Assembly (NCBI RefSeq): GCF_024448505.1
Contig: NZ_JAMOHV010000002.1
Location: 62,001-126,000, forward strand
Source of the DNA: Stutzerimonas degradans
GTDB taxonomy: Bacteria; Pseudomonadota; Gammaproteobacteria; Pseudomonadales; Pseudomonadaceae
Length of the DNA: 64,000 bases
Reading direction: 5' to 3'
Shown here: positions 4,071-64,000 of the stretch, one piece after another
Position numbering within the stretch: position 1 is the first letter of the stretch
Layout: each line of letters starts with the position of its first letter
Position numbers and translations under genes: made by a program
The notes under the pieces: model-generated
Database searches by the model: none
Told to the model about the DNA's origin: nothing
Seen by the model: only the letters and a program-made list of their open reading frames with translations

Positions 4071-6250
<2,180 letters not shown>

Positions 6251-44481: not shown

Positions 44482-44627
44482 GGATTCTCCGCGGTGAAGG
44501 CATTGTCGCGCGGCATTCTACCGCCCTCACAACAGCCGGCACGTGCGGTCGCCACACCGCGTTCACCGAGCGCCAGCAGGAATGCGCACATCGGACGGCA
44601 CATCGGGCGATGGCAATTTGCCGCAAA

Positions 44628-44646
44628 GATGAGAACGATTAGTATT
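44628..44646 (+). promoter_or_regulatory. Fur-box-like operator over the siderophore exporter promoter
   Basis: GATGAGAACGATTAGTATT agrees with the 19-base Fur consensus at 11 positions by my count. It overlaps a candidate promoter with -35 TTGCCG (44,618-44,623), 16-base spacer and -10 TAGTAT (44,640-44,645). Iron-replete repression of the downstream operon is inferred. Confidence 0.65.
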
Positions 44647-44700
44647 TGAAATAGCGTTTGAGATTGCCTACCATGCTGCCGCCCTAGCCACCCGAGTGCG

Positions 44701-45936
44701 ATGCAGATGGACGCTGATCGACAATCGAAAGCCGCCGTTCACCTGGCCATGCTGATCAACATGCTGTCGATCGGCAGCCTGATGATGGTCATGCCGCTCG
44801 GTCCGGATTTCGTGCGGGCGCTGGGCATGCAGGCCAGCCACGTCGGCTACCTCGCCGGTGGCGCCACGCTTGCCGCGGCGCTGAGCGCGGCGCTGAGCGC
44901 CGCCTGGCTCGATCGCCTGGAGCGCAAGCGCGCGCTGATCGGCCTGCTGGCACTGCGTTTCGCCCTGCTGCTGGCTTGCGCGCTGGCCAGCGGGCCGCAG
45001 CAGCTGATCGTGCTGTTCGTGCTGTCCGGCCTGGTTGCCGGCCCCATGGGCGCGGTGTTGATGGCCGCGATGCTCGACCTGATTCCGCCCGCCGAACGTG
45101 GCCGCAAGCTCGCCTACGTCGCCATGGGCTATTCACTGGCGGCCATCGTGGTCACGCCGCTGGCGCTGGAGCTCGCCGCGCGCGGCGGCTGGCAGACGCC
45201 TTTTGTGCTGTTCGGCGGTGCCGGCGTGCTGCTCGCATTGCTCTGCCTGCGACTGTTCCCCACACCGCCGACCCACGCCCGCAGCGCGACGCGTCTGTGG
45301 CCGCTGCTGCGCGCCCCGCTGTGCCAGGGCGCGCTGTTGATCGTGGCGCTGCAGATGTTCGGCCACTTCCTGCTGGTGCCGCACTTCTCCAACTACTTCC
45401 AGTTCAACCTGGATTTTCCGCGCCAGCACATCGGCCTGCTCTATCTGTGCGGCGGCCTCGCCAGCCTGGCGGCGATGCACCTGGGCGGCGTGCTGATCGA
45501 CCGTGGCGGTGCCGTAACGGTGGTGCTGCTCAGCAGTGGCTGCCTGGCCGCCATCACCCTGCTCGGTTTCGCGCTGCCACTCGGGCTATCGCTGTACCTG
45601 GTGTTCACGCTGTTCATGGCGCTCGGCGCGGTGCGCAGCAGCAGCACGCTGACCATCGCCGCGGCCATTCCGCAGCCCGAGCAGCGCGCCGCCTTCATGG
45701 CGCTGCAGAGCACCGTATCGAATATCGCTGCCGGCCTCGGCAGCCTGTTCTCCGCGGCCTACCTCACCGAGGACGCCGTCCGCCGTCTGGTCGGCTTCGA
45801 CGACCTGGCCTGGCTCTATGCCGGCGCCGGAACCGCCGCCGGCATCGGCGTGCTGGTGCTGCTGCGTGCGATTCACGCACGCTCAGACGCCAGCACCACA
45901 CAAGAAGGCAGGACCCAACCTGCCGGGGAATCGTGA
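44701..45936 (+). CDS. MFS transporter, candidate siderophore exporter
   Basis: 411 residues with about twelve hydrophobic segments (residues 12-395) and the loop DRLERKRALIG between helices 2 and 3. It is the first gene after the Fur-box-like site and is followed by the receptor and uptake genes, so export of the catechol product, as EntS does for enterobactin, is the best guess. It does not share a close signature with EntS that I can see. The gap to the receptor is 44 bases, so co-transcription is likely. Confidence 0.82.
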   Translation: MQMDADRQSKAAVHLAMLINMLSIGSLMMVMPLGPDFVRALGMQASHVGYLAGGATLAAALSAALSAAWLDRLERKRALIGLLALRFALLLACALASGPQQLIVLFVLSGLVAGPMGAVLMAAMLDLIPPAERGRKLAYVAMGYSLAAIVVTPLALELAARGGWQTPFVLFGGAGVLLALLCLRLFPTPPTHARSATRLWPLLRAPLCQGALLIVALQMFGHFLLVPHFSNYFQFNLDFPRQHIGLLYLCGGLASLAAMHLGGVLIDRGGAVTVVLLSSGCLAAITLLGFALPLGLSLYLVFTLFMALGAVRSSSTLTIAAAIPQPEQRAAFMALQSTVSNIAAGLGSLFSAAYLTEDAVRRLVGFDDLAWLYAGAGTAAGIGVLVLLRAIHARSDASTTQEGRTQPAGES

Positions 45937-45980
45937 TCAGTCCGCGCTGTACAACAACTACTTGGCAACGGAGCCTGCAC

Positions 45981-47948
45981 ATGCAGCTTGTACGAAGAAT
46001 CAGCCGCCCCCGTCATCTTTCTCTGACCCTGCTCGGCAGCCTGCTGCCGCTGGCAGCGCTGGCTGATACCCCGGTCACCCTGAAGAACGAAGTCATCACC
46101 GCCACCCAGACCGCCCACAGCGAACTCAGCGCACCGGCCAGCGTCTCGGTGGTCACCCGCGAGGAGCTGGACAAGCTGCCGGTCTACAACCTGGCCGATG
46201 CGGTCAAGTACCTGCCGGGCGTGCACATCAACCCGTCCTCCACCTACGGCCGCAAGGAAATCAAGCTGCGTGGCATGGATTCGGACTACACCCTGCTGCT
46301 GGTCAACGGCCGGCGCATCAACTCGCGTGACGTGCTGACCTCCGAGTACGCCAATGACTTCGATCTGTCGTCGATCCCGATGGCCGCCATCGAGCGCATC
46401 GAGGTGATCCGTGGGCCGATGTCCTCCCTGTACGGCGCTGATGCTATCGGCGGGGTAGTCAACGTGATTCTTCGCCAGGCAGGCAACCAGACGCGGGGCG
46501 GGGTGGCGTACTCCTACGAGACCCCAACCGAAGGCGACGGTGGAGACAGCCACAAAACGAGTGGATACATCAGCGGTGCACTGATCGAAGACAAACTGCT
46601 GGGCAATCTGATCGTGGAAGGCACCGATAAAGCTGCCTGGCGATCCGATCAAACTGTCGCACGCGGCGCAGACGCTGCTGAGCACCGGCAGGACGCCAGC
46701 GCGTATGGCTCGCTGAGTTGGTTACTTGACGAGCGCCAAACGATCGACCTCGACATAACCCACCGCCAGGATGATCGCGTGGCGAACTGGTATCCAAGCG
46801 CGAGATATGGCGTTATCCAGAACGATCAGGAAATGGAGCGCACCAGTTTCGGCCTGAGCCACACCGGTCGCTGGGACAGCTTCAATAGCCGAGTACGCTA
46901 TTACTACGAAGATGTCGAACTTGCTGATGCCTCGGCGCTTATGACTCGCTTCAACAATGGCATCGTCGGCCAAGCCGAACAGCAGAATCACACCGTCGAC
47001 GGCCAGCTCAGCGGTGTCGTAGCCAATCAATTAGTAACGGTAGGAGCAGAGCGTCGGCGTACCGAATTCAGCCATAACCAGAACCTGGGAACCGAGACCA
47101 ACGTCGATCAATACGCGCTCTATCTACAGGATGAATTCTCCCTTGGGCAACTGGATGTGACGCTAGGCGGACGCTGGGACCACCACGAAGTTTTCGGCAG
47201 TGAGTTCAGTCCCCGTGCGTACGGCGTCTACAACCTGACCGACAACTGGGTGATCAAGGGGGGCGTCGGTAAATCGTTCAAAGCCCCGGCGATTTACCAA
47301 TCTGACGAGACCTATAGCATTGCAGCATGCCAAGGCGGTTGCCGAGTCAAGGGCAATGCAGAACTGAAGCCCGAAACAGCTGTTAGCTACGAGATAGGTA
47401 CGCTTTATCAAAACGAACGGCTGGAGGCAGGCATCACGCTCTTCCAGACTGAAATCGATGACATGATCATCAGTGACCGTTGGCGCGCGGGCTATCGACC
47501 GCCGGTGATGACCTACACGAACATCAGTAAGGCTCGTATACGAGGTTACGAGCTGCAGGGTCGCTATGCCTTAAACGATGTACTCGGTCTACGCGGTAAC
47601 TACACCTACTCCGATGCCGAGGATCGCGAAGCAGAAACTCCGCTCAACAATACCCCGCAGCACTTGGCCAGCCTCGGCCTTGACTGGCAAGCACTGCCGG
47701 CGCTCGCGTTGAACCTCGATTATCAGTACGTCGGTAGCCAATGGCTAAGCACTCCTGCCAGCGGCAGTCAGGAAAGTGGCGCCTTCCACACATTGAACTT
47801 CGGCGCCCGCTATCAAGCGACAAACCACCTGACACTCAACGGCGGGCTTAACAACCTGACCAACGAAAAACGCGACAACGTCGCCCAGTCGGTCGACAAC
47901 ATCCTCATGGGCCGCACCTTGTTCGTCGGGTTCAACTACGACATCTGA
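45981..47948 (+). CDS. TonB-dependent catecholate siderophore receptor
   Basis: 655 residues. The signal peptide ends at AALA. A TonB-box-like EVITATQT follows, then the plug (VSVVTREELDKLPVYNLADAVKYLPGV; MDSDYTLLLVNGRR; IERIEVIRGPMSSLYGADAIGGVVNVI, all in parts) and a 22-strand-type barrel ending LFVGFNYDI (terminal aromatic-rich strand). It resembles the CirA/FepA/IrgA group for catechol siderophores. GGAG stands eight bases before the ATG. Codon use and GC change markedly after about 46,480 (see findings). Confidence 0.93.
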   Translation: MQLVRRISRPRHLSLTLLGSLLPLAALADTPVTLKNEVITATQTAHSELSAPASVSVVTREELDKLPVYNLADAVKYLPGVHINPSSTYGRKEIKLRGMDSDYTLLLVNGRRINSRDVLTSEYANDFDLSSIPMAAIERIEVIRGPMSSLYGADAIGGVVNVILRQAGNQTRGGVAYSYETPTEGDGGDSHKTSGYISGALIEDKLLGNLIVEGTDKAAWRSDQTVARGADAAEHRQDASAYGSLSWLLDERQTIDLDITHRQDDRVANWYPSARYGVIQNDQEMERTSFGLSHTGRWDSFNSRVRYYYEDVELADASALMTRFNNGIVGQAEQQNHTVDGQLSGVVANQLVTVGAERRRTEFSHNQNLGTETNVDQYALYLQDEFSLGQLDVTLGGRWDHHEVFGSEFSPRAYGVYNLTDNWVIKGGVGKSFKAPAIYQSDETYSIAACQGGCRVKGNAELKPETAVSYEIGTLYQNERLEAGITLFQTEIDDMIISDRWRAGYRPPVMTYTNISKARIRGYELQGRYALNDVLGLRGNYTYSDAEDREAETPLNNTPQHLASLGLDWQALPALALNLDYQYVGSQWLSTPASGSQESGAFHTLNFGARYQATNHLTLNGGLNNLTNEKRDNVAQSVDNILMGRTLFVGFNYDI

Positions 47949-48002
47949 CCCATCCCCGGCCCGGCGGCGACGCCGGGCTACCGGAGCCAATAGCGATGCA
48001 CC

Positions 48003-49037
48003 ATGCGAACTGATTCGACGATGCCGGTATTCCAGAAGGCCACCCTCGTTGCCGGGGCTGGCCTTCTGCTGGTGTTGCTGGCCCTGTCGCTGGCCACCGG
48101 TGCCGGCGTGTATGGCGCCGACGCGGTACTCGGCTACCTGCTCGGTGCGCCCGAGTATCTGGCAGACGACAAGCTGGCGATGGTGGTCGATACCCTGCGT
48201 CTGCCGCGCACCTTCGCCGCGCTGGTAGTGGGCGCCAGCCTGGCGATCGCCGCCTCGCTGCTGCAGAGCGCGACGCGCAACCCGCTGGCCGAACCCGGCC
48301 TGCTCGGCGTGAATGCCGGTGCGGTACTCGGGCTGGTGATCGGCCTGATCTATTTCGGCGTCGAGTCGACCCAGGGCTATCTGCTCTGGTCCGGACTCGG
48401 CGCGCTGCTGGGCAATCTCGTCGTGCTCGGCGTCGGCCTGATGCTCGGCCAGGCCAGCCCGCTCAAGCTGATTCTCGCCGGCGTGGCGCTGGGCGCCATC
48501 TTCGGCGGGATGGCGAACTACCTGCTGCTGTCCACCCGCGTGGCGCTCGAACAGTTCCGCTTCTGGAACCTCGGTTCGCTGTCCGCCTCGCACCTCGACG
48601 CGCTCGCCACCGTCGCCCCGCTCGCCGTGCTCGGGCTGATCCTCGCGGCGCTGCTGTGCCGGCAGCTGACGCTGATGCAAATGGGCGACAGCCAGGCGCG
48701 TGCGCTGGGCATCCACACCAGCTGGGTGCGTCTCGGCGTGCTGGCGGCGTCCACCCTGCTCACCGCCTGTGCCATCTCCCTGGCCGGTCCGGTGGGTTTC
48801 GTCGGTTTTCTCGCCGCCTATTGCGCGCGACTGCTCGAACCGGTGGCGCTGTTGCGCCAGCTGCTGTTCTCCACGCTGTTCGGCATGCTCTTCCTGCTCG
48901 CCGCCGATGTGCTGGCGCGCTGGCTGCTGCAGCCTTACGAACTGCCGGTCGGCACGTTGCTGGCGGCCCTCGGCGCGCCGGCGCTGATCGCCATCGTGCT
49001 GCGCGGCGGCTTCCGTTCCCTGCTGACGGTGAGGTAG
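48003..49037 (+). CDS. FecCD-type siderophore ABC permease (FepD-like)
   Basis: 344 residues. Many membrane helices; FecCD signatures are DTLRLPRTFAALVVGASLAIAASLLQSATRNPLAEPGLLGVNAGA (in parts) and MGDSQARALGIHTSWVRL with GPVGFVGFLAAYCAR. With the second permease it forms the inner-membrane channel for ferric siderophore. It lies 54 bases after the receptor and three bases before the next gene. Confidence 0.94.
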   Translation: MRTDSTMPVFQKATLVAGAGLLLVLLALSLATGAGVYGADAVLGYLLGAPEYLADDKLAMVVDTLRLPRTFAALVVGASLAIAASLLQSATRNPLAEPGLLGVNAGAVLGLVIGLIYFGVESTQGYLLWSGLGALLGNLVVLGVGLMLGQASPLKLILAGVALGAIFGGMANYLLLSTRVALEQFRFWNLGSLSASHLDALATVAPLAVLGLILAALLCRQLTLMQMGDSQARALGIHTSWVRLGVLAASTLLTACAISLAGPVGFVGFLAAYCARLLEPVALLRQLLFSTLFGMLFLLAADVLARWLLQPYELPVGTLLAALGAPALIAIVLRGGFRSLLTVR

Positions 49038-49040
49038 CCG

Positions 49041-50087
49041 ATGCCGCCCATTGCCAATCCTTCCGGCGTCTGGACGCTGCGCATCGGCGGCCTGAGCCTG
49101 CTGCTGCACCGGCGCAACTGGCTGATGTTCGGCCTGCTGTCGCTGCTGCTGGCCGCCCTCGCTGTGCTGGCGATCAGCCTGGGCAGCGGCAATCTCGGTG
49201 TGCGCGACGTGCTGGCCACGCTGACCGGCAACGGCAGCAAATTGCAGGAGATCATGGTGTTCAAGCTGCGCCTGCCGCGGGTCGCAGCGGCGATCGTCGC
49301 CGGGCTGGCGATGGGCATGGCCGGCTGCCTGATCCAGACCCTGGTGCGCAACCGCCTGGCCACGCCGGACATGATCGGCGTGAACGAGGGCGCCTCCCTC
49401 GCCGTGGTCGCCTTCGCCCTCTACCTGACGCTCGGCAACTGGCCCTGGTGGGCTTCGCCGCTCGGTGCCCTGCTCGCCGCCGCCGCGCTGTTCGCCCTGT
49501 GCCGGCGTCCAGGCGAACAAGGCTATCTGTTCATCGTCATCGGCATTGCGCTGTCCGAGCTACTCGGCGCCATCGGCGACTTCGCCATGTCGACCCAGCC
49601 GCTGGTACACCTGGGCAGCATCTACCTGTGGACGATGGGCCACTTCGCCGGCATCAGCTACCAGACGGTCAATCCCATCGCAGTGCTGCTGGCGCTGCTC
49701 TGCCCGCTACTGGCGCTGGTCAACCGGCCGCTGGCGCTGCTGCGCTTCGGTGATGCCACCGCGCAGAACCTCGGCATCCGTGTGCCGGCGATCCAGCTCG
49801 GCGTGCTCGCCCTGGCGATTCTGGTGGCGGCCCTGGGCACCGCCATCGGCGGACCGGTGGTGTTCATCGCCATGGCCGCGCCGATCCTCGCCTCGTGGCT
49901 GGCGCGCGACAACCTCGCACCGATCTGGCTGTCGGCACTGTGCGGCGCGGTGCTGCTGCTCGGCAGCGATACGCTGGTGCGCGTGCTCGCCCAACCCGAA
50001 GAAATCCCCACCGGAATCATGACGCGCCTGCTCGGCGGCATCCTGCTGCTCGGCCTCTTGATCAAGGACAGACGAGGAGCTGACTGA
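49041..50087 (+). CDS. FecCD-type siderophore ABC permease (FepG-like)
   Basis: 348 residues. It has the paired FecCD pattern: FKLRLPRVAAAIVAGLAMGMAGCLIQTLVRNRLATPDMIGVNEGAS (in parts), FGDATAQNLGIRVPAIQLG, and the C-terminal EEIPTGIMTRLLGGILLLGLLI that contacts the ATPase. The stop overlaps the ATPase start as TGATG, so the transporter subunits are translated as a set. Confidence 0.94.
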   Translation: MPPIANPSGVWTLRIGGLSLLLHRRNWLMFGLLSLLLAALAVLAISLGSGNLGVRDVLATLTGNGSKLQEIMVFKLRLPRVAAAIVAGLAMGMAGCLIQTLVRNRLATPDMIGVNEGASLAVVAFALYLTLGNWPWWASPLGALLAAAALFALCRRPGEQGYLFIVIGIALSELLGAIGDFAMSTQPLVHLGSIYLWTMGHFAGISYQTVNPIAVLLALLCPLLALVNRPLALLRFGDATAQNLGIRVPAIQLGVLALAILVAALGTAIGGPVVFIAMAAPILASWLARDNLAPIWLSALCGAVLLLGSDTLVRVLAQPEEIPTGIMTRLLGGILLLGLLIKDRRGAD

Positions 50088-50923
50088 TGACTGCCCTGCG
50101 TGCAGAAAACCTGCATTTCGCCTATCAGGACAAGGTGGTGCTCGACGACGTGTCCTTCAGCCTGCCGCGCGGCAAGCTGATCGGCATCGTCGGCCCCAAC
50201 GGCAGCGGCAAATCAACGCTGCTCAAACTGCTCGCGCGCCAATTGCCGCTGCAGCGCGGCACCGTGGAAATCCATGGCAAGCCGCTGACGCGCTATTCGC
50301 TCAAGGCATTGGCGCGCGAGCTGGCCTTCCTGCCGCAACGGCCGGTGCTGGCCGAGGGCATCCGCGTCGAGCAGCTGGTGCAGTACGGTCGCCATCCGCA
50401 TCAGGGCTGGTTCAACCAGTGGAGCGAGGAAGACGCCCAGCAGGTCGCCCGCGCCCGCGAGGCGATGCAGCTCGACGCCATCTGGCAGCGCAGCGCCACC
50501 TCGCTCTCCGGCGGCCAGGCGCAACGGGCCTGGCTGGGCATGATCCTGGCGCAGAACACCGACCTGATCCTGCTCGACGAACCCACCAGCGCGCTGGACA
50601 TTGGCCACCAGGCCGAGGTGATGGAAGCGGTCTACCGCATCGCCGCCGCCGGGCGCACGGTGCTCATCGTCATCCACGACCTCGGCATTGCCGCGCGCTA
50701 TTGCGACGAGCTGATTGCCCTCGCCGACGGCCGTGTGCAGGCCATCGGCCCGGCACGGCAGGTAATGACCAAGGCACTGGTCGACCGCCTCTACGACACC
50801 GATGTCGACATCCTCCACGCTCCCGGCGACGGCGCCCCGGTGATCGTGCCGCGCCGCCGCCAGGCCGCGGCCGCATCCCAGTCGCTGCGCCACGAACACC
50901 CCGAAAAGGAAGGCATGCAATGA
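50087..50923 (+). CDS. Siderophore ABC transporter ATPase (FepC-like)
   Basis: 278 residues. Walker A is GPNGSGKSTLLK (about residues 37-48), signature LSGGQAQRAWLGM, Walker B LILLDEPTSALDIGHQ, and switch His in VIHDLG. The Q-loop is LPQRPVLAEGI. It powers uptake through the two FecCD permeases. It overlaps both neighbours (TGATG upstream, ATGA downstream). Confidence 0.95.
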   Translation: MTALRAENLHFAYQDKVVLDDVSFSLPRGKLIGIVGPNGSGKSTLLKLLARQLPLQRGTVEIHGKPLTRYSLKALARELAFLPQRPVLAEGIRVEQLVQYGRHPHQGWFNQWSEEDAQQVARAREAMQLDAIWQRSATSLSGGQAQRAWLGMILAQNTDLILLDEPTSALDIGHQAEVMEAVYRIAAAGRTVLIVIHDLGIAARYCDELIALADGRVQAIGPARQVMTKALVDRLYDTDVDILHAPGDGAPVIVPRRRQAAAASQSLRHEHPEKEGMQ

Positions 50924-51864
50924 CCCTCAAGACATCCTGGAGCCTCGCCGCCGCGCTGCTCGCCGGTCTGCTCGCCCTGCCGGCCCAGGCCGACGCCCGG
51001 CAGATGACCGATGCGCTCGGCAATACCGTTACGGTGCCGGACGCGCCCAAGCGGGTGATCACCCTCAGCGAGATCGACCTGGACACCGCACTGACCCTCG
51101 GCGTCACCCCGGTCGGCACCATCAACGGCCGAGGCCAGGCGGCGCCGCCACGCTATCTGGACGGCAAGCTGCCAGCCGGCATCGAGGTGGTCGGCGATAT
51201 CGACAATCCGAATCTGGAGACGCTGCTGGAGCTGCAACCCGACCTGATCCTCACCGGCCCGGTGAAGCCGGAACAGCTGGCGATCCTCAACGAGATCGCC
51301 CCCACAGTGATCACCTTCAACTGGGCACGCCCCTGGCAGGAAAGCATGCAGCGCACCGCGCAGGCGCTGAACCGCGAAGCCGAGGCCAAGGCCGTGCTGG
51401 AGCGCTATCGGGCACGAGTCGAAGAAGCGCGCCAGCGCCTGGCGGCCCATCAGGGCGAGACACTGAGCATCGTGCGCTGGAATCCCAAGGGGCCGTCGTA
51501 CATGTTCAAGGATGCCTTCGCCAGCACCGTCGCCGAAGATGTCGGGCTGCGCCGCCCCGCCCACCAGCAGGACCCCGGCCACACCCATTCGATGGCGCTG
51601 AGCCTGGAATCGCTGGAACTGCTGGATGCCGACTGGCTGGTGATTGGCACGCTGGCGACCAGCGGTGAGGCGGTCGAGGCGATGCATCAGGCTGAGCAGA
51701 CGCCGGCGTTCCGCCAGCTGTCGGCGATTCAGGCGAAGCGCTTCGGCGCGGTGGACGGGTCGTTGTGGACTTCGCTTGGCGGGCCGATGGCGGCACTGCA
51801 GGTGATCGAGGATATCGAGGGGTTGTTGGGGAAGGCGGATGCTGAACTGGTGGTGAAGGATTAA
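50920..51864 (+). CDS. Periplasmic siderophore-binding protein (FepB/FecB type)
   Basis: 314 residues. The signal peptide ends at AQA near residue 22. The fold is a class III binding protein: RQMTDALGNTVTVPDAPKRVITL, DIDNPNLETLLELQPDLIL and later KRFGAVDGSLWTSLGGPMAALQVIEDIEGLL (in parts). It carries iron-siderophore from the receptor to the FecCD permease. It is the last gene of the plus-strand operon; no strong intrinsic terminator follows at once. Confidence 0.94.
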   Translation: MTLKTSWSLAAALLAGLLALPAQADARQMTDALGNTVTVPDAPKRVITLSEIDLDTALTLGVTPVGTINGRGQAAPPRYLDGKLPAGIEVVGDIDNPNLETLLELQPDLILTGPVKPEQLAILNEIAPTVITFNWARPWQESMQRTAQALNREAEAKAVLERYRARVEEARQRLAAHQGETLSIVRWNPKGPSYMFKDAFASTVAEDVGLRRPAHQQDPGHTHSMALSLESLELLDADWLVIGTLATSGEAVEAMHQAEQTPAFRQLSAIQAKRFGAVDGSLWTSLGGPMAALQVIEDIEGLLGKADAELVVKD

Positions 51865-52058
51865 GGATCGAGGTGAGGCTGGGCGGTGGCCAGCTCGTTT
51901 CGGTTTGCGTTGAAGGTTGGGGCGACTACCGCACGTGCTGATGCCCCTGGTTTCGGCCCCTAGGCCGAGTCACATGACTCGCTTCGCTCGCCCTTCGGGC
52001 CAGCTTGCGGCTGTTACTCCGCTACGCTCCGTATCTCGTTACTCGCCGAGAACTGTAG

Positions 52059-52086
52059 GGTGGAAAACCGCGCAGCGTTTTCCACC
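52059..52086. repeat. REP-like hairpin
   Basis: GGTGGAAAAC and GTTTTCCACC form a perfect ten-base stem with loop CGCGCAGC, preceded by TGTAG. The TAGGGTGGAAAAC...GTTTTCCACC type is, to my knowledge, a dispersed extragenic repeat in P. stutzeri-like genomes. It may end transcription between the convergent arms. Confidence 0.65.
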
Positions 52087-52176
52087 TTGTTTGAGGTGGG
52101 TTTCGGCGCGTGTCTCGGTGTATGACGCTGCGCTTTCCTCGGCCCGGCCTACAGGTTGCGCCTTGCACGGCGCCTC

Positions 52177-52204
52177 ACTTTTCTTTGCGCGCGCAAAGAA
52201 AAGT
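52177..52204. repeat. Perfect 28-base palindrome
   Basis: ACTTTTCTTTGCGC followed directly by GCGCAAAGAAAAGT, without a loop. It is the outer end of the larger inverted repeat described for 52,177-52,700. Confidence 0.85.
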
Positions 52205-52700: not shown

Positions 52701-52776
52701 GGTGGCCGAAACCCGGAGTGCAAGCACACGCGGTAATCGCCCAGGCTTTCCGCCCGACAAGTTACAAAACACGCCC

Positions 52777-54222: not shown

Positions 54223-57200
54223 GGCTGTCCTCCGTTTGCTCGGCCAGCGCCAGCAGGTTGTCCTGCAGCAGAGCCAGCAGCTGATCGTTCAGCTCGGCGC
54301 GCAGGTTGCCGATCTGCCGCAGGGTCAGCCGGCCGTCGAACACACCGCCGTGCAAGCTGATCAGCTCCGCCGAAGGGTTGTCCGCCGCGCTCGGCCGGCC
54401 TGGAGCAATGGGCAGCGCCTGCCAGGCGTCCGTGCCGCTCTGGTAGATGCCGAGGTAGTTGAGCGCCACCGCCGGCAGCGGCAGCTGCGGCCGAAAATCA
54501 GGATTGGCGCGCAGCGGCAGGTAGCCGACGCCCTTGTCCGGCACCTGTCGCAGCTGTTCGGCGGCGTGGCGCAGCAACTGCGGCCAGTCCTCCTGATCGC
54601 GCAGCGCCAGCGGGAACATGCTGGTGAACCAGCCGACCGTGCGGCTGACATCCAGCGCCGGGTCGATGGCCTCACGGCCGTGGCCTTCGAGCATGATCCA
54701 CTGTCGCTCGCCCAGCCCGAGCCCGTGCAGCGCGCGGGTCAGTGCGGCCAGCAGCAGCTCGCGCATGTCTACCGCGAAGTGCCGGGTGGCCTCCTGCAAT
54801 CGCCGCGTCAGTGCCTCGCTCAACTCCAGCTTCTGCTCACATGGTACGCCGCTGCCCGCCCAGCCCGCCGGCGGCGCCTCGGGCATGCCGGCCAGTTCGC
54901 CATGCCAGTACGGCAGCTGCGCCTCGGCGCGACGGGCATAAGCGGCCAGTCCCTCGCCCCACTGGCGGTAGCTGCTGGTCTTGGCCGGCAGCACCTCGCC
55001 GCGCGCGAGCCGGCGCAGGTCATCGACCAGGATGCGCCAGGACACCGCGTCGATGGCCAGATGATGCACGGCGATGAACAGCCCGCGCGTACCGCCGGCG
55101 AGGTTGTCGATCAACGCCCAGGCCAGGTGGCGCCCCTGCGCCGGCTGCAGGTGCGCCTGCAGCTCGGTCAGCGCCTGCTGCAAGCATTCCTCGCCGAGCG
55201 TTGCCGCATCGAGCCGCGCCGGCTCGCTCAATTTCACATGTGTCAGATAGCGCTGGCCGCGCGCAGCGACCGCCAGGCGCAGCGCGTCGTGATGACCCAG
55301 CAGCTGGCGCATGCAATCCATCAGCTGCGCCACCTCGATGGCGGCCGGCAGACGCAGCACCACGCCCTGATTCCAGTGTTGCGGGCTGGCGAACGGTTGC
55401 TCGAAGAACCACTGCTGGATCGGTTGCAGGGCGAAGGCTTCGCCCTCCAGCACGCCCTGCTCGGCACGGATCGCCACCCGTTCGCGCGGCTGGCCGAGCA
55501 CCCGGCACAGGCGGCGCACGGTGCGCGCCTCGAACACTTCCCTGACCGTGCAGGCATGCCCGGCATCGCGCAGGCGGGTGGTCAGCTGGATGCTCAGGAT
55601 CGAATCGCCGCCGAGGGCGAAGAAGTCGCTCTCCACCCCCAGCGGCTGCTCGAGCACACCCTGCCAGATCGCCAGCACCGCCGCTTCCAGCTCGTCCGCC
55701 GGCGCCACCAGCACGGCGCTGTCGGCCAGTTCGACCGGCGGCAGCCGCCGCGGGTCGAGCTTGCCGTTGGCGGTCAGCGGCATACGCTCGAGCAGGATCA
55801 GCCGCACCGGCAGCATGTATTCCGGCAGGCGCCGCGCCACGTCCTGCAGGATGGCGTCGGCGTCTGGCATGGCTTCACCCGCTTTGACCGAGGCGTAGGC
55901 CACCAGCGCCTGGCGCTGACCCTGGCGGGCGACGATGACCTTGACCTGTTGCAGCGCCGGGCAGCTGATGGAGAGCTGCGCCTCGATCTCGCCGGGTTCG
56001 ATGCGATAGCCGCGCAACTTGATCTGCTCGTCGATGCGGCCGAGGTACTGGTAGTCGCCGTTGGCCAGCAGCCGCGCGCGGTCGCCGGTGTGATACAGCC
56101 GCACCGTCACGCCGGCGATCTCATGCTCGCGGAACACCGCGGCGGTGCGCTGCGGCTGGTTCAGGTAGCCGCGCGCCAGGCCCAGTCCGGCCAGGCACAG
56201 TTCGCCCGGTACGCCGACCGGGCAGAGCCGGCCGTGCGCGTCGAGCACCAGTGCCTGCATGCCGTCGATGGGCCGGCCGATGCTCGGCGTCGTGCCGGGT
56301 TCGATGCGCTTGGTCAGCGCGGTGACGGTGGCCTCGGTCGGGCCATACATGTCGATCAGGCGGAACTGCCGGCCCCAGCGCTCGGCCAGCGCCGGCGGGC
56401 AGGCCTCGCCGCCGAAGCCGACCGCCTTCATCGCCGGCAGCGGCCGCGCCGGCAGGGTCGCCAGCAGCGCGGTGGCGAAGATCATGTGGGTGGTGCGCAT
56501 GCGCTCGATCTCATCCAGCAGGCCCTCGCCGGGGTCGGCCCAGAGCAGGCAGGCGCCATGGGTCAGCGGCAGCAGCGCGCACATGTTGCCGGCGTCGAAG
56601 GACAGCGACATGCAGTCGAGCATGCGATCGCCGGGGCCGATGGCCAGACGGCGGCCGTGATCCAGCAGCAGGTTGGCCAGCGCGCCGTGCTCGACCATCA
56701 CGCCCTTGGGCAGGCCGGTGGAACCCGAGGTGTAGATCACCTGCGCCAGCTGCTGCGGCTCGTCGCTGCGCGGCGGCGCCGCAGGCGACTGGGCATCCAG
56801 CTGCGCGCACAGCTCGGGGTCGCTCAGATCGACCCAGCGCAGCTCGCCCAGCGCGAACGGCGCGGCGCCGGCACCGAGCAGCAGGTCAAGCCCGGCGTCG
56901 CTGACGATATGGGCGATGCGCTCGGCCGGGTAATCCGGGTCCAGCGGCACGTAGGCGCAGCCGGCCTTCCACACCGCGAGCGCGGCGACGGCGAAGGCGT
57001 TCTCGCGTCGCGCCAGCACGCCGACCAGCGCCCCCGGCTGGCAGCCCTCGGCCTGCAGCCAGTGCGCCAGGCGGTTGGCCCGCGCATCCAGCTCGGCGTA
57101 GCTGATGTGGCCTGCACCTTCATGCAGCGCCACGGCCTGCGGCTGGCGGCGCGTCCAGTCCTCGAACAGCGGCAACGGCGTCAGCCCGTGCGGATAGCCC

Positions 57201-58777
57201 GCCGGCAGCGCCGCCAACCGCTCGCCGGTGGCGCGCAGCAGTTCGTCATCGAGCAGTGGCAGTTGCCAGATGTCCTGCTCGGGGTCGGCGACCACCGCCT
57301 GCAGCAGCCGCAGCAGGCGGCTGGCATAACCTTCGACGGTGCTGCGCTCGAACAGCGCGGTGGCGTACAGCCAATCGACCCGCACCGCATCCATCAGCTC
57401 GGTGACCTTCACCGAGATATCGGTCTTGGCCGGCAGCGCCGGCGAGGTTTCCTCCACCGCGGCGCAACCGGGGATCAGGTCGTTGAAATCGACCCGCGCC
57501 TGGTACACCAGCATGATCTGGAAGATCGGGTTGATCGCCGTATGCCGCTCCATGCCCAGCGCCTCGCCGAGCGCCTCGAAGCGGTACAGCTGATGGTCGA
57601 AGGCCTGCAGATCGTCCTGCCGGCACTGGCGCAGGTAGTCGCTGAACGACTGCTGCTCGGGCAGCTGCGTGCGCAGCACCAGGGTGTTGACGAAGAAGCC
57701 CACCAGCGCCTCGATGTCCGGGCGTTCGCGGTAGGCCAACGGGGTGCCGACGACGATGTCGCGCTCGCCGCTGTGGCGTGCCAGCAGCAGGGCGAACAGC
57801 GCGTGCAGGCCGATGAACGGCGAAGCGCTGTGGCGCTGGCAGAGCTGCTTGAAGCGCGCCCACAGGCCGTTGTCGATCGTCGAGAACACCAGCGCGCCGC
57901 CACTGGTCTGCTGCGCCGGGCGCGGCCGGTCCAGCGGCAGGCTGTGCACCTCGGGGATGCCGGCCAGGCGCTCGATCCAGAACGGCTTGTACTCGGCGTG
58001 ATAGTCGCGAAACAGCGGCGAGTTGAACCAGTGCGCGTAGTCGATGAAGGTCAGCGGCGGCTCGCCCCAGTCCAGCGGCTGGCGATTCTGATAGGCGAGG
58101 AAGGCGGTCTTGAGGTCGGCGAACATGTTCTTCACCGACCAGCCATCGGAAATGATGTGGTGCTGGTTGATCAGCAGCACGTGCTCGCGCGCGCCCAGGC
58201 GCAGCAGGTGCACGCGGGTCAGCTCGCCGTTGGCGAGATCGAACGGCCGCTCGATTTCCTCGCGCACCCGTTCGGCCACCCGTGCCTCGCGGGCCGATTC
58301 CTCCAGCCCGGTGAAGTCTTCGTGGACCAGGGCGAAGCCGCGATGGGCGACGATCTGCTGCTCGCCCTTGCCCTCGGCGTTGCGCACAAAGTGCGTGCGC
58401 AGGCTGGCGTGGCGCTGCACCAGGGCGTCGAAGGCGAACTCCAGCGCGGCCACGTCCAGCTCGCCGCTGAGGCGGAAGAACACCGGCATGTTGTACAGGT
58501 GCGAATGCTCCTGGTACTGCTCGATGAACCACAGCCCGCTCTGCGACGAGGACAGCGGGCCGACCTCGGCGTGACGCGGCTCGATGGGCGCGTCGAATGC
58601 CTGGCGCGCGCGCAGGCAGCGGACGATGGCGTCGCGATGGGTGCGGATCAGCTGACCCAGCTCGGGCGTCAGCGCCTCCCTGCTCGACTGCGAGACCAGC
58701 TGGCCCTGGGTATTGAGTGCCAGGTGTACGCCCTGCCCGGCGAGCTGCCGGAGCAGGCCGATGATGTTGTCGTGCAT
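54209..58777 (-). CDS. NRPS, docking-C-A-PCP-E (AmoG-like)
   Basis: 1522 residues. Order: TubC-like docking domain (1-58), condensation (about 70-480, HHIISDGW at 205), adenylation (about 530-1010; [11 protein letters not shown] at 681, FDAGNMC at 726, K in NGKLD near 1005), carrier with [11 protein letters not shown] (Ser about 1058), and epimerization (about 1100-1522; [32 protein letters not shown]). It therefore gives a D residue. Code by hand D-A-M-F-G-G-M-V-T-K, not one I can assign. No thioesterase is attached. GAGAGG precedes the ATG; entA lies 10 bases upstream. Confidence 0.9.
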
Positions 58778-58787
58778 CTGCTACCTC

Positions 58788-59546
58788 TCAGGCTGCCAGG
58801 GTGGCGCCGCCGTCGACGACGATGTCCTGCAGGGTGATATGGCTGGCCAGGTCCGAGGCGAGGAACAGCACGGTGTTGGCCACCTCCTCGGGTGTGGCGA
58901 TCTTCTGCAGCGGGATGCCGAGCTTGAACTGCTCGGGCAGGCCGGCGATGGTCCGCGCGCGGCCGCTGTCGTCGGCCCACATGCCGCGCTGCATGGCGGT
59001 ATCGGTGGAACCCGGCGACACCAGGTTGCAGCGCACGCCGTAGCTCGCCAGCTCCAGCCCGGCGGTGCGGATCAGGCTGGTCAGCGCCGCCTTGGACGCC
59101 GCATAGGCCGCCATCTGCATGCGCGGCACCCGCGTCGCGTTGCTGCTCACCGCCACCACCGCGCCATGGCCTTGCGCGCGAAAGCGCGGCAACAGCTCAC
59201 GCAGCAGGTAGAACGGCCCGGAGACGTTGACCCGCAGCGAGTCGTCCCAGTCGGCCAGGCTCAGCTCTTCGATCGCGCCGAGGCGCAGGATGCCGGCGAC
59301 GCTGGCGAACACGTCGATGCCCTGCCCCGGCGCCAGCAACTCGGCGCAGGCCTGACGCACCGCGGCGGCATCACCCACATCGAGCACATGGGTGCGATAG
59401 CCGTAGTCGCATTCCGGGAACGCCCGATCCAGCCCCACCACCTCACCGCCGAGCCGGGCGAAGCCCTCGGCCACCGCGCGGCCGATGCCCTGGCCGGCGC
59501 CGGTGACCCAGATGCGCCGCCCGTGAAAATCCATCTGCTGTGTCAT
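58788..59546 (-). CDS. entA: 2,3-dihydro-2,3-dihydroxybenzoate dehydrogenase (EntA/AmoA-like)
   Basis: 252 residues from [12 protein letters not shown] prefer this ATG over the one two codons earlier because AGG lies eight bases before it. It is a short-chain dehydrogenase: [21 protein letters not shown] is the NAD site, [11 protein letters not shown] follows, [13 protein letters not shown] carries catalytic Tyr and Lys, and the Ser is in [11 protein letters not shown]. It makes 2,3-dihydroxybenzoate in the cytosol. It lies between the two NRPS genes. Confidence 0.92.
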
Positions 59547-59556
59547 CTGCATGTCC

Positions 59557-62500
59557 TCACCAGACCCGTTCCACCTGCGCTTGCCCCTGCCGCAGACGGC
59601 TGTCGAGGAAGCGGCAGAAATCCGCCAGACAGGGGTTGTCGAACACATCCGAGACCTTCACCGCGGTGCCGAACTCGGCGGCCAGGCGGTTGACGATCTG
59701 GATGGTCTGCAACGACTGGCCACCAAGTTCGAAGAAGTTGTCCTGCGCCTGGATGCCGCCGACGCCGAGGATCTGCTGCCAGATGGCGCTGACCCGCTGC
59801 TGGGTGGCATCGTCCAGTGCCTGGATGGTCGCGTCCTGTAGGTACTCGGCCTGCAGGCGCTTGCGGTCGAGCTTGTTGCTGCCGGTGCGCGGCAGCGCGC
59901 GATAGTGGCGGTAATCGGTGGGCACCATCGCTGCGGGCAATACCTGACCCAGCGCGCGGCGAATCGCCCGCAGGTCGTCACAGGGGCCAGCGACGAAGGC
60001 CACCAGCCGGCGCAGTCCGCCGCCCAGCTCCAGGCCGAGCACGCAGGCCTCGTCGACGCCGTTCAGCGCCAGCAGGCGCGCCTCCACCTCGCCGGGCTGG
60101 ATGCGGTAGCCGCTGATCTTGAATTCGTTGTCCAGCCGGCCTAGGTAGACCAGCTGGCCGTCGACGCGACGCACGCGGTCGCCGGTGCGGTAGACGGTTT
60201 CCTCGTGCGCACCGATGCGCAGGCGGGCGAAGGCCGCGGACGCGCTGTTGAGATAGCCGTTGGCCAGCTGAGGGCCGCACAGCACCAGCTCGCCCTCGGC
60301 GGCCGGGCGCTCGCCGCGTTCGAGCACCAGCGCCTGCACGGTCGCCAGCGGCAGCCCGATGGGCAGGCGTTCGGCGCTGGCATCGACCGTCTGCAGGTCG
60401 CAGCTGCTGGCGACCACCGTGGCCTCGGTCGGCCCGTAGGTGTTGATCAGCCGCAGCTTCGGTCCGGCCACCCGCTGCCAGGCGGCGAGCTGTTCGGGAA
60501 ATACCGCCTCGCCGCCGATGATCACCGTCTTCAACCCGGCTGGAATCCGCGTCTGGCCGCTGCGCAGCGCCACCACCCACTCGTTCCAGAACGCGGTCGG
60601 CAGGTCGACGATGCTGATCGCCTGCGCCTCGATTCCATCGACGAAGGTGTCGATCGACTGCAGCAGCGCATCGGTGCGCAGCACCAGGGTCGCGCCGGCA
60701 CTCAGGCTGACGAAGACTTCCTCGATGCTCGCATCGAAGTTGAACGGCGCGAACTGCAGCATGCGGTCGTCCGCCGTCACGCCGTAGCGCAGCCGCGCCG
60801 CCGCGCTGAAATGATCCAGCGCGCGATGGCTGATCTCCACGCCCTTCGGCGTGCCGGTGGAGCCGGAGGTGAACATCAGATAGGCCGCCGCCTCGCCGCT
60901 GCGCGGCGCATGCCGGCGTTCACAGGTGGCGAGCTGGCCGAGCAGCTGGATCGGTCCGGCGTAGCTGGCGCCCAGGCGATGGCGGTAGGCCGCTTCGGTG
61001 ATCACCAGCGCCAGTTCTGCGCTGGCGCAGATCAGTGTCTGCCGTTCGGCCGGCTGCTCGGCATCCAGCGGCACGTAGACGGCGCCTGCCAACAGCACGC
61101 CGAGCTGCGCAAGGATCGCCTCGGGCGAGCGGGCGAGCATCACGCCGATCCGCTCCCCGGGCTGCACGCCCTGCTCCGCCAGCGCCGCGGCGATCTCCTC
61201 GGCGCGTGCCAGCAACGCGGCGTAGTTCAGCCGGCGCTCGCCCTGACACAAGGCGATGCGCTCCGGCTCGCGCTCGGCGTGCGCGCGGATCGCCGCCAGC
61301 ACGCTGGTCACCTCGCCCAGCTGAACCTGTTCCGCGGCCGGCGCGCTGAGGCGCTGGTGAAATCGGTAGTCGGCCATCCATGCATCGAGGACCAGGTCGC
61401 GCGGCAGTTCGGGTGCCGCCAGCCAGCGGCGCAGCAACTCGAACAGTTCCTCCTGCAGTGCCCGCAGATGCTCGGCGCTGTAGCACGCCGGGTTGGCGTC
61501 GTAGTCCAGCTGCGGAATGCCGTCGGCACCGACCTGCACCTCCAGAGTCAGGTCCTCCACCGGCCCGGCGCTGAGGTTGAGCGTGCGCGCCGCCAGCTCG
61601 CCGTAGGCCAGCGGGCGGTCAAACGGCATGATGTTGATCAGCGGGCCGAACAGCCGCTGTTCGCCACCGACGCGGCCAAGGTCGCGGCGCAACGCTTCGT
61701 AGCGGTAATGCTGATGCTTGCGGCTGGCGCGGCGCAGCTTGCCGATCGCCTTCGCAGTGGCGATCAGGCTGGCCTCGCCATCGGCCTGCAGGCACAGCGG
61801 CGCGATGTTCATCTGCATGCACGGCACGTTGAACGAAGCCGAGCCGATGCGATTCATCACCATCAGCCCGAACACCTGGGCATCGCTGCCGCTGACCTGG
61901 CGCAGCTGCGCGCTGAGCGCGGCCAGCAGCAGATCGGCCCAGCCGATGCCGTGGGCGTCGGCGGTGGCGCTCAGCAGCTGCCACAGCGGTGCCGGGAAGC
62001 GCGCGCCGTGCCGCACGAAGGTCGCCGAGATCGGCGCGCTGCGCTCGCTGAAGCTGACCGGCGCCGGCAGCCGCGAGAAGGTCTCCAGCCAGTAGCCGCG
62101 CGCGGCGGCAGTCTTGTTTTGCGCATCGCGCTCGGCGTCCTCGGCGAGTACATCGGCATAACGGCCGAAGCCGCAGGCTGGTGCCGGTTCGCCGCGCACA
62201 GCGGCGCCGTAGAGCTCGGCGATGCGCTGGTACAGCAGGTTGGTGCCGTAGCCGTCGAGGGCGATGTGGTGCACGCAGCTGTAGAGAAAATCCTGCCCCG
62301 CCGCCCGCAGCAGGACGAAACGGCAGGCCAGCTCGCGCTCCAGGTCGAACGGCTGGCGGATGTCGGCCATCGCCCAGTCGCGCACCCAGGTTTCGGCGTC
62401 GGCGAACGCCGGCACCTCCAGCTGCGCTACCGTCAGCGGCAGCTCGCAGGGGTCGAAGCACACCGTTTCGCCGTCGATCACATATAGCCCGCTGAGTGCC

Positions 62501-62658
62501 TCGCACTCGCCCACCGCCTGCTGCACGGCGGCGATCAGCAGCGGCGCCTGCACCTTGCCGGCGAAGGCGATGCACTCGGCGGTGTTGAACATGGCGCGGT
62601 CTTCGTTGAGCAGGTAGCCGTACCACAGGCCCTGCTGCGCATTGCCCAGCGGCCTCAT
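59557..62658 (-). CDS. NRPS, C-A-PCP with Lys-like code (AmoF-like)
   Basis: 1033 residues from MRPLGNAQQGLW, whose ATG overlaps the entB stop (ATGA). Condensation domain about 1-420 with VHHIALDGYG at 129 and an EntF-like course (FGPLINIMPFD), as expected for accepting DHB from the aryl carrier. Adenylation about 450-930: FTSGSTGTPKG (596), FDASIEE (641), [10 protein letters not shown]. Carrier at about 960-1030 with FFELGGQSLQT. The hand code is D-A-E-D-I-G-T-V-V-K; acidic Glu/Asp suggest a cationic substrate, best Lys. No thioesterase. A10 reads SNKLD instead of NGKxD. Confidence 0.9.
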   Translation of the reverse strand: MRPLGNAQQGLWYGYLLNEDRAMFNTAECIAFAGKVQAPLLIAAVQQAVGECEALSGLYVIDGETVCFDPCELPLTVAQLEVPAFADAETWVRDWAMADIRQPFDLERELACRFVLLRAAGQDFLYSCVHHIALDGYGTNLLYQRIAELYGAAVRGEPAPACGFGRYADVLAEDAERDAQNKTAAARGYWLETFSRLPAPVSFSERSAPISATFVRHGARFPAPLWQLLSATADAHGIGWADLLLAALSAQLRQVSGSDAQVFGLMVMNRIGSASFNVPCMQMNIAPLCLQADGEASLIATAKAIGKLRRASRKHQHYRYEALRRDLGRVGGEQRLFGPLINIMPFDRPLAYGELAARTLNLSAGPVEDLTLEVQVGADGIPQLDYDANPACYSAEHLRALQEELFELLRRWLAAPELPRDLVLDAWMADYRFHQRLSAPAAEQVQLGEVTSVLAAIRAHAEREPERIALCQGERRLNYAALLARAEEIAAALAEQGVQPGERIGVMLARSPEAILAQLGVLLAGAVYVPLDAEQPAERQTLICASAELALVITEAAYRHRLGASYAGPIQLLGQLATCERRHAPRSGEAAAYLMFTSGSTGTPKGVEISHRALDHFSAAARLRYGVTADDRMLQFAPFNFDASIEEVFVSLSAGATLVLRTDALLQSIDTFVDGIEAQAISIVDLPTAFWNEWVVALRSGQTRIPAGLKTVIIGGEAVFPEQLAAWQRVAGPKLRLINTYGPTEATVVASSCDLQTVDASAERLPIGLPLATVQALVLERGERPAAEGELVLCGPQLANGYLNSASAAFARLRIGAHEETVYRTGDRVRRVDGQLVYLGRLDNEFKISGYRIQPGEVEARLLALNGVDEACVLGLELGGGLRRLVAFVAGPCDDLRAIRRALGQVLPAAMVPTDYRHYRALPRTGSNKLDRKRLQAEYLQDATIQALDDATQQRVSAIWQQILGVGGIQAQDNFFELGGQSLQTIQIVNRLAAEFGTAVKVSDVFDNPCLADFCRFLDSRLRQGQAQVERVW

Positions 62659-63527
62659 GCGGCACCTCCGTGCTGCTGGATCTGCGCCCACCAGCCGTTG
62701 AGCGTCGGCGTCTTCGCCAGATCGGTGAAGCTCAGCTCCAACCCCTGCTCGCGCCACTCGCTGAGCAGCGACATCACCTGGATCGAATCCAGGCCGTAGT
62801 CGAGCAGGTTCTCGTCCGGGTCGAACGGCTCGTCGATCTCATCGAGCATCGCCAGCAGGCGTGCCTGCAGCGCCTCGCGGGTCAGCCTCAGGCCTGCTGC
62901 ATGCCCCAGCCCGAGCATCTCGCGGCATTCGATCACCCGCCCGCAGCGCGTGGCGATGTAATTCAGCGCCATCTGGTGGTCGGCCTGGCTGAAGTCGGCG
63001 ATGCCGTCGGCCAGCAGGAACGGCTGGATGTCGCGCATGAAGGCGTCGCAGGCGGTCATCAGGCAGCCGATGTGGCCGTAGATGCCCCCGATGATCAGCT
63101 GGTCGCGGCCCAGCTCGCGCAGCAGGTGTTCCAGCGGCGAGCGCTGGAAGGCGCTGTAACGCCATTTGACCAGCACGGTGTCGTCCGCCGCCGGCGCCAG
63201 GCCGGCGACGATGCCCTGACGCGCCGGATACTGGGTAATGCCGGGGCCCCACATATCGTTGAGCAGCGCCCGCTCGGCGTTGGCCTGCTGCCCCGGTTGC
63301 GCGGTGTAGACCACCGGGATGCCGAGCGCCTTGCAGCGCTCGCGCACGGCGGCCAGGCGCTCGACCAGCGCGGCGACGAAGGGACTGTCCTCGCCCCAGA
63401 AGTCGCAGAAGTAGTCCTGCATGTCATGGATCAGCAGCACCGCGCGCGCGGGGTCGACCGGCCACTGGACCTTGTTCACCGCCCATTCGCTGGGCAGGCT
63501 GTAGGGCGTGAGCGTGGGAATCGTCAT
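62655..63527 (-). CDS. entB: Isochorismatase with aryl carrier domain (EntB/AmoB-like)
   Basis: 290 residues. The N-terminal hydrolase splits isochorismate to 2,3-dihydro-DHB: AVLLIHDMQDYFCDFW holds the catalytic Asp, VLVKWRYSAFQRSPL the Lys, and GGIYGHIGCLMTACDAFMRD is close to E. coli EntB. The C-terminal aryl carrier (about 215-290) carries YGLDSIQVM with phosphopantetheine Ser248. AAGGA stands before the ATG. It lies 12 bases after entE and overlaps the NRPS gene by four. Confidence 0.95.
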   Translation of the reverse strand: MTIPTLTPYSLPSEWAVNKVQWPVDPARAVLLIHDMQDYFCDFWGEDSPFVAALVERLAAVRERCKALGIPVVYTAQPGQQANAERALLNDMWGPGITQYPARQGIVAGLAPAADDTVLVKWRYSAFQRSPLEHLLRELGRDQLIIGGIYGHIGCLMTACDAFMRDIQPFLLADGIADFSQADHQMALNYIATRCGRVIECREMLGLGHAAGLRLTREALQARLLAMLDEIDEPFDPDENLLDYGLDSIQVMSLLSEWREQGLELSFTDLAKTPTLNGWWAQIQQHGGAA

Positions 63528-63539
63528 GGAGCGAAGTCC

Positions 63540-64000
63540 TTATTCAGTAACGGTCAGTTGTTCGGCGAGACGGCGGCGCAGGCGGGTCTTGTCGACCTTG
63601 CCCACCGCCGTCATGGGCAGCGCCGCGACCTGCTCGATGCGGTCCGGCAGCTTGTAGTCGGCCAGCCCGAGGCCACGCAGGTACTTGCGCAGGGCGACGG
63701 CCTTGAGCGTCGGGTCGCGGCTGACGATGAACGCGCAGCTCTTCTCGCCCATGCCCGGGTCCGGCATGGAAACCAGCGCGGCGTGGGTGACGGCCGGATG
63801 CGCCATCAGCAGGTTTTCCACTTCCTCGGCGGCGATCTTTTCGCCGCCGCGGTTGATCTGGTCCTTGATGCGTCCGACCACCACCAGGTAGCCGTCCGCG
63901 CGCAGCTGCACGAGATCGCCGGAGCGGTAGAAACCCTCGGCATCGAAGGCCTGGGCGTTGTGTTCCGGGCTCTGGAAATAGCCGCGGATGGTGTAAGGCC
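63540..64000 (-). CDS. entE: 2,3-dihydroxybenzoate-AMP ligase (EntE/AmoE-like), C-terminal part
   Basis: Reading enters from beyond the window and stops at TAA 63,540-63,542; about 152 codons are seen. The part contains [10 protein letters not shown], the A8 motif [23 protein letters not shown] and the A10 motif [11 protein letters not shown], matching EntE closely. It activates DHB and loads it onto the EntB carrier. Isochorismate synthase is not within the window and would be expected upstream (beyond 64,000). Confidence 0.94.

Follow-up and report, generated by a model that had tools for sequence, protein, structure and literature searches.

A probable amonabactin gene cluster of Stutzerimonas degradans combines a shortened AmoG synthetase with a retained stand-alone adenylation enzyme

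Gene content and organization of the locus

A stretch of 64,000 nucleotides from Stutzerimonas degradans (hereafter the window; positions 62001-126000 of contig C2 in the 4.0-Mb genome G000) was analyzed, and from position 44701 onwards it carries what is very probably a gene cluster for the bis-catechol siderophore amonabactin. Its nonribosomal peptide synthetase (NRPS) AmoG lacks the terminal condensation (C) and thiolation (T) domains found in Aeromonas, and the stand-alone adenylation (A) enzyme AmoH, presumably the glycine-activating one, is kept. Domains were called with Pfam and NCBIfam, and the starts of the TonB-dependent receptor and of the binding protein were picked by eye. The cluster consists of two convergent operons with ends ~0.9 kb apart, a transport operon on the plus strand (44701-51864) and a biosynthetic operon on the minus strand, with the order entC, entE, entB, amoF, entA, amoG, amoH along transcription. 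The gene content, order and strands given in the initial annotation (entE, entB, C-A-carrier protein, entA, docking-C-A-carrier protein-epimerization, and a lone A domain, facing a plus-strand exporter-receptor-ABC operon) were borne out by the open reading frames (ORFs) and Pfam calls, and the isochorismate synthase that it had suggested looking for just past position 64,000 was found there.

The minus-strand genes begin beyond the window with entC (amoC), coding for isochorismate synthase (L001:2163-3353, window-equivalent 65,162-66,352; Pfam Chorismate_bind), followed by amoE/entE for the 2,3-dihydroxybenzoate (DHB)-AMP ligase (63540-64000 and on to window-equivalent 65,327, L001:541-2328; Pfam AMP-binding) and amoB/entB (62655-63527; Pfam Isochorismatase and PP-binding, the latter being the aryl carrier domain). 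The C-A-T synthetase gene amoF occupies the ORF 59557-62757 (Pfam C, A, and T; adenylation code DAEDIGTVVK), and amoA/entA, coding for 2,3-dihydro-2,3-dihydroxybenzoate dehydrogenase (NF006074, 371 bits vs. a cut-off of 312), the ORF 58788-59648; the true starts of both lie probably ~100 bases inside the listed ORFs (59557 to ~62,658 and 58788 to ~59,550, respectively). Next comes amoG (54209-58777), which encodes a docking-C-A-T-epimerization (E) protein with two Pfam Condensation stretches, an A domain with the code DAMIGGMVTK, a T domain, and a weak TubC_N (docking) match of 22.9 bits, under its 26-bit cut-off. The second condensation-family stretch is taken here to be the E domain, judged by the motif HHxxxD...SWRIL. 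The last gene, amoH (52777-54222), matches only AMP-binding and AMP-binding_C and has the code DILQLGCVWK.

The plus-strand operon starts with an MFS exporter (44701-45936; Pfam MFS_1, E-value 3.4e-44; 58% identical to its Aeromonas caviae counterpart), whose nearest named family is the myxochelin exporter MxcK (NF038077) at 168.5 bits, i.e., below the cut-off of 525. It is followed by a TonB-dependent receptor (~45981-47948; Pfam Plug and TonB_dep_Rec_b-barrel; 50% identity to A. caviae), two FecCD iron-siderophore permeases (48003-49037, E-value 1.6e-79, 72% identity; and 49041-50087, E-value 2e-73, 64% identity; both Pfam FecCD), an ABC transporter ATPase (50087-50923; Pfam ABC_tran; 71% identity), and a periplasmic siderophore-binding protein (~50920-51864; Pfam Peripla_BP_2, E-value 1e-19; 66% identity). 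The gap between the two operons (51865-52776) contains a dispersed repeat, parts of which match 8 other sites of the genome at 73-81% identity; in locus L003 the corresponding gap is only ~140 bases long. An Rfam search gave zero matches across 40,000-64,000.

Probable assignment to the amonabactin clusters

Fifteen reference proteins (from the 13 cluster genes and two neighbours) were compared with 14 named pseudomonad loci (L002-L015), with A. caviae (L075) and with Salinivibrio kushneri (L076). A. caviae has the complete set of 13 cluster genes, arranged and oriented identically, at identities between 47% (entC) and 72% (permease 1), those of AmoF, AmoG, and AmoH being 59%, 61%, and 61%, respectively. 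Among the 73 loci listed, the nearest named relatives, as judged by AmoG, were Stutzerimonas sp. S1 (95%), S. stutzeri TS44 (95%), and 24a75 (92%). The adenylation codes of AmoF, AmoG, and AmoH equal those of A. caviae at all 10 positions; that of AmoF was the same in 15 of the 15 sequences read and that of AmoG in 11 of 12 (Salinivibrio having DAMIAGMVTK), and the AmoH code recurred in 14 of 16, the other two reading DILQLGCIWK. These counts omit AmoG of L007, L009, L010, L011, and L013 as well as AmoF of L010, which the motif search missed, and the supposed AmoF of L008, which is really its AmoG. We take the AmoF code to resemble known lysine codes and the AmoH code known glycine codes.

The synteny over 13 genes and the identical codes make it very probable, as far as sequence comparison can tell, that the locus is an amonabactin cluster; this is what the initial annotation had proposed, and the Lys-like and Gly-like codes as well as the similarity to Aeromonas proteins in the same order, on which it relied or which it suggested checking, were confirmed. 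A different bis-catechol siderophore (of the vanchrobactin, chrysobactin, myxochelin, or enterobactin type) is very unlikely: myxochelin MxcG and enterobactin EntF do appear among the NCBIfam matches of AmoG and AmoH, with scores far short of the cut-offs, but synteny and codes agree with the A. caviae cluster (the clusters compared were amonabactin ones, with those of vanchrobactin and chrysobactin outside the comparison), and the A domains of the three NRPS proteins are of Lys-like, aromatic-type, and Gly-like character, with no Pfam match in these proteins to a thioesterase (TE) or reductase domain. The seven biosynthetic genes follow the order amoC-E-B-F-A-G-H named for Aeromonas (PMC8949500, PMC11861348); the publications cited here by PMC number were accessible in part, and statements about them refer to those portions.

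The initial annotation knew of no confirmed description in this genus, which turned out to be wrong. Stutzerimonas strains are said to have a cluster for amonabactin, ferrioxamine, or vibrioferrin (PMC10165715, citing Zawadzka 2006 and Essen 2007), production of amonabactin was shown for P. stutzeri VS-10 (PMC5345036), and amonabactin masses were given for Pseudomonas sp. SST3, in whose genome the cluster was annotated and for which P. zhaodongensis SST2 served as co-culture partner (PMC10609385). The NCBI taxonomy places SST3 in Pseudomonas and its partner's species in Stutzerimonas; in Pseudomonas in the narrow sense, amonabactin had never been reported according to PMC10165715. The cluster described here is thus no new occurrence for the group.

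Short and long forms of AmoG

The AmoG of the window ends directly after its E domain and contains two condensation-family domains, as seen by Pfam, in the translation, and by tblastn. The proteins of A. caviae (2087 aa) and Salinivibrio (2180 aa) have three condensation-family Pfam stretches each, and the one of A. hydrophila has been described with 2089 residues and three condensation domains (PMC11861348). The A. caviae protein is 565 aa longer than ours, its tail reading E-C-T where the window has only E. The view of the initial annotation that the final epimerase matches the amonabactin product holds only in part: AmoG does end at an E domain here, but because AmoG of A. caviae, Salinivibrio, and A. 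hydrophila has three condensation-family domains, this ending departs from the Aeromonas architecture, in which the E domain is followed by a second C domain and a closing T domain. On visual inspection, A. caviae and Salinivibrio retain the HHxxxDG motif of the post-E C domain, the serine of the tail T domain is retained in all three long forms (A. caviae, Salinivibrio, and G449), and in all three the C-T tail ends right before amoH. In AmoG of A. caviae and G449, two T stretches are recognized by Pfam, but in that of Salinivibrio, which has a divergent tail T, there is one.

AmoH was matched (E-value 1e-100) in 21 of 398 Pseudomonadaceae genomes, 15 of them among the 56 genomes of the window's genus. 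In 19 of the 21, the window included, AmoG is short, with the E domain directly upstream of amoH and no match to C-T. The AmoG of S. zhaodongensis NEAU-ST5-21 (L015) is also short, at 1520 aa, as are those of Stutzerimonas sp. S1 and 24a75. The sole long form among them belongs to G449, from another genus (L113; 2069 aa, with a tail sharing 53% identity with that of A. caviae), in which AmoH was matched in 2 of 37 genomes. The other of these two, G486, holds an AmoH-like gene (L114:4800-6134; 45-47% identity) whose core motifs seem degenerate on visual inspection, and none of the other cluster genes was detected in the 20 kb examined. We did not treat a three-condensation AmoG as defining for amonabactin clusters, since the genus usually has the short form in this sample and is nevertheless in print as an amonabactin carrier (PMC10165715). 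This difference in the domains of AmoG seems undescribed in the searchable literature (the accessible portions of PMC5345036, PMC10165715, PMC10609385, PMC8949500, PMC11861348, PMC12421891, and PMC9309559 contain no description of a shortened AmoG); this is weak evidence, as that coverage leaves out most subscription papers.

The direction of the change was addressed with two trees, from which L008 was omitted due to its partial AmoG. In the tree rooted with other NRPSs (quick method, 24 rows, L016 being without a usable outgroup row, and with a program warning on long outgroup branches), the long form of Salinivibrio branches off first, then those of A. caviae and G449, and the 16 short forms make up one clade (Shimodaira-Hasegawa-like approximate likelihood-ratio support, SH-aLRT, 100). 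A more careful tree of 15 rows again gave the short clade (100/100), with support of 90/96 for the branch separating Salinivibrio. This topology favours a loss of C-T, which we consider more likely than a gain but not proven, since an arrangement holding the long forms as one clade was not rejected by the approximately unbiased test (p-AU 0.093).

Search for a substitute C-T

Genome-wide profile matches revealed no substitute C-T elsewhere in the window's genome. All 3 condensation-family matches fall within AmoF and AmoG, and 3 of the 5 carrier domains above cut-off belong to the amonabactin cluster; the carriers outside it are a small 81-aa frame and a protein of 914 aa that combines A, T, and TE domains, on contig C10 (L078:4801-7545), far from the cluster and with no link to it that we can see. 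Thioesterase-family matches amount to 6 in the whole genome, none of them tied to release. When the C-T of L113 was used as query, 21 of the 56 genomes of the genus were matched: in the 15 genomes with AmoH and in G604, the hits were confined to the C domain of AmoG or AmoF (as judged by place and frame length; 22-31% identity), a search that a divergent stand-alone T domain could escape, and in G568, G410, G491, G577, and G431, which are without an AmoH match, the query matched NRPS genes. In the class-wide search, 9 of 369 genomes were matched with at best 35% identity, and we take these matches as other NRPSs.

Retention of amoH

The dN/dS ratio of amoH (Nei-Gojobori) was 0.055-0.135 in 7 pairs with dS < 0.6 and 0.087-0.252 in the other 6 pairs (dS 0.92-1.39), values to which those of the neighbouring genes are broadly similar, and which indicate that amoH is under purifying selection. 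The Gly-like code and the active-site lysine were retained in the 14 short-form AmoH sequences read. A different picture was found in S. stutzeri TS44, where a deletion of ~1 kb inside amoH (L012:14569-15590) has removed most of the gene; one 429-aa frame in this genome matches both permeases, which are fused there, and as the assembly is a draft, an assembly error is possible in TS44. The contig positions of TS44 coincide with those of G604, a genome lacking an AmoH match.

Putative pathway and route of glycine

In the Aeromonas scheme, amonabactins carry DHB on two lysines, phenylalanine or tryptophan, which is added by AmoG, and an optional glycine (PMC8949500). Following this scheme, EntC, EntB, and EntA would form DHB, which EntE would load onto the EntB carrier; AmoF would couple DHB to lysine, twice; AmoG would add Phe or Trp and epimerize it (the D form being implied by the E domain); and AmoH would activate the optional glycine. 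The MFS protein would then export the product, and the TonB receptor together with the ABC transporter would import the iron complex. Iron regulation of biosynthesis may be assumed from a Fur-box-like site just upstream of entC (L001:3355) with 14/19 positions in agreement; in 14 of the 17 loci examined, the top-scoring site ahead of entC has at least 12/19. The window has 3 Fur-like sites of at least 13/19, none at the cluster promoters, as compared to a mean of 0.55 such sites per 64 kb in 20 mononucleotide shuffles.

In our own view, the long form is most simply understood as one in which AmoH feeds glycine to the tail T of AmoG and the third C domain uses it. Where C-T is missing, glycine either reaches another carrier, or stays out of the product, or the Aeromonas C-T is not a glycine module. 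That AmoH inserts glycine here despite the missing C-T we regard as having somewhat less than an even chance. As AmoH is kept despite the absent C-T, it may charge a carrier within the remaining line, the AmoF T being our first guess, and we tentatively propose, as a reading less likely than not, that the Stutzerimonas lineage lost C-T and still inserts glycine, a single carrier receiving lysine in cis and, by turns, glycine in trans from the free-standing A enzyme. The published SST3 masses are relevant here. The computed neutral masses are 693.301 (P693), 732.312 (T732), 750.322 (P750), and 789.333 (T789), and the values 693.3010, 750.3217, and 789.3335, printed as [M+H]+ in PMC10609385, equal those of P693, P750, and T789 within 0.001 Da; since P750 and T789 are among them, Gly-containing amonabactins seem to have been made in that work, the masses being assigned by formula only. 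An ion of m/z 694.3082, for which the same publication gives no database hit, equals the computed [M+H]+ of P693 (694.3083) within 0.0001.

A cluster making only P693 and T732, in which AmoH is idle or being lost, appears rather unlikely. Such a glycine-free outcome would agree with the absence, with no substitute found, of the C-T that is the obvious candidate for the glycine module of the long form, and with the deletion in TS44; the purifying selection on amoH, the conserved code and lysine of the short-form sequences, and the Gly-containing masses from SST3 argue against it. Alternatively, the C-T of Aeromonas might serve release or another step, and AmoH might always have charged the T domain of AmoF, which we judge unlikely. 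In favour of this view, AmoH shows neither acceleration nor a code change where C-T is absent, the T domain of AmoF hardly differs, by eye, between the long and the short forms, and no TE domain was found by Pfam in the four AmoG proteins of the window, Salinivibrio, G449, and A. caviae, so that the tail could have a role in release. The position of C-T directly before amoH in all three long forms, with the T serine kept, speaks against it.

The proposed loss of C-T with continued glycine insertion has, apart from the unrejected long-form clade, further points weighing against it. An accelerated change of amoH along the stem branch leading to the short forms was considered and rejected, as its stem/within-short ratio of 0.126 resembles the 0.116-0.201 of seven other genes; carrier retargeting was likewise rejected, because the T domains of AmoF, AmoG, and EntB, compared by eye between short forms and the 3 long sequences, gave no signature of a new AmoH partner. 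These negative results fit an AmoH that never depended on C-T equally well. Going by the loss in TS44, AmoH may be dispensable. The AmoG form of SST3 can be deduced at most through the short AmoG of S. zhaodongensis (L015), the nearest link to the SST3 work (PMC10609385), and the best Fur-like site of the transport operon, upstream of the MFS gene, is weak with only 11/19.

According to a review (PMC8949500), no nonribosomal mechanism described so far is probably as complex as amonabactin synthesis, which is iterative, alternative, and optional. The short AmoG offers a natural case of an assembly line that lacks the presumed glycine module and has retained the enzyme feeding it, and a comparison of strains with short and long AmoG makes the route of the optional glycine directly testable.

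Genomic context

In the window's genome, G535, and G580, the cluster sits between a methyltransferase gene and hda, which are separated by 23.6 kb in the first two and by 24.3 kb in G580. The hda gene of G447 (24a75) is located past the methyltransferase gene, and in the single-contig genome G598 both are 0.7-0.9 Mb away from amoH. The patchy occurrence and the shifted flanks fit either a moved locus or a rearrangement of the chromosome. The GC content is 0.677 in 44,600-64,000, 0.642 in the rest of the window, and 0.662 in L001 beyond base 5,000. Upstream of the transport operon, a curlin-repeat protein with seven PF07012 stretches is encoded at 40185-41399. At the other end, a gene for a 553-aa protein (L001:3451-5112) diverges from entC and weakly matches the SASA esterase family (25.3 bits, cut-off 24.8); among the 16 loci compared, such a protein stands beside entC only in L002, L005, and L012.

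Comparison with known systems

The reports on Stutzerimonas and P. stutzeri (PMC10165715, PMC5345036) share with the present locus the genus group and the name of the cluster or product, and in their accessible portions the domains of AmoG are not described. Myxochelin is built on the same DHB and lysine chemistry as amonabactin. The likeness of the myxochelin cluster (MxcG, MxcK) is a distant one in exporter and synthetase, with matches far under the curated cut-offs. The cluster of Salinivibrio kushneri (L076) has the same biosynthetic order and identical AmoF and AmoH codes; it differs in its long AmoG, in one position of the AmoG code, and in the placement of the MFS, receptor, and phosphopantetheinyl transferase (PPTase) genes upstream of entC, the PPTase gene being upstream of MFS. 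In A. caviae (L075), an extra PPTase gene (L075:23051-23863) lies between those for the binding protein and the ATPase, whereas the window's cluster is without one, the single PF01648 match of its genome being a 240-aa PPTase elsewhere (L077). The Aeromonas amoCEBFAGH cluster (A. caviae L075; A. hydrophila in PMC11861348 and PMC8949500) and that of the window have in common the order of the seven genes, the convergent transport operon, and the codes of AmoF, AmoG, and AmoH.

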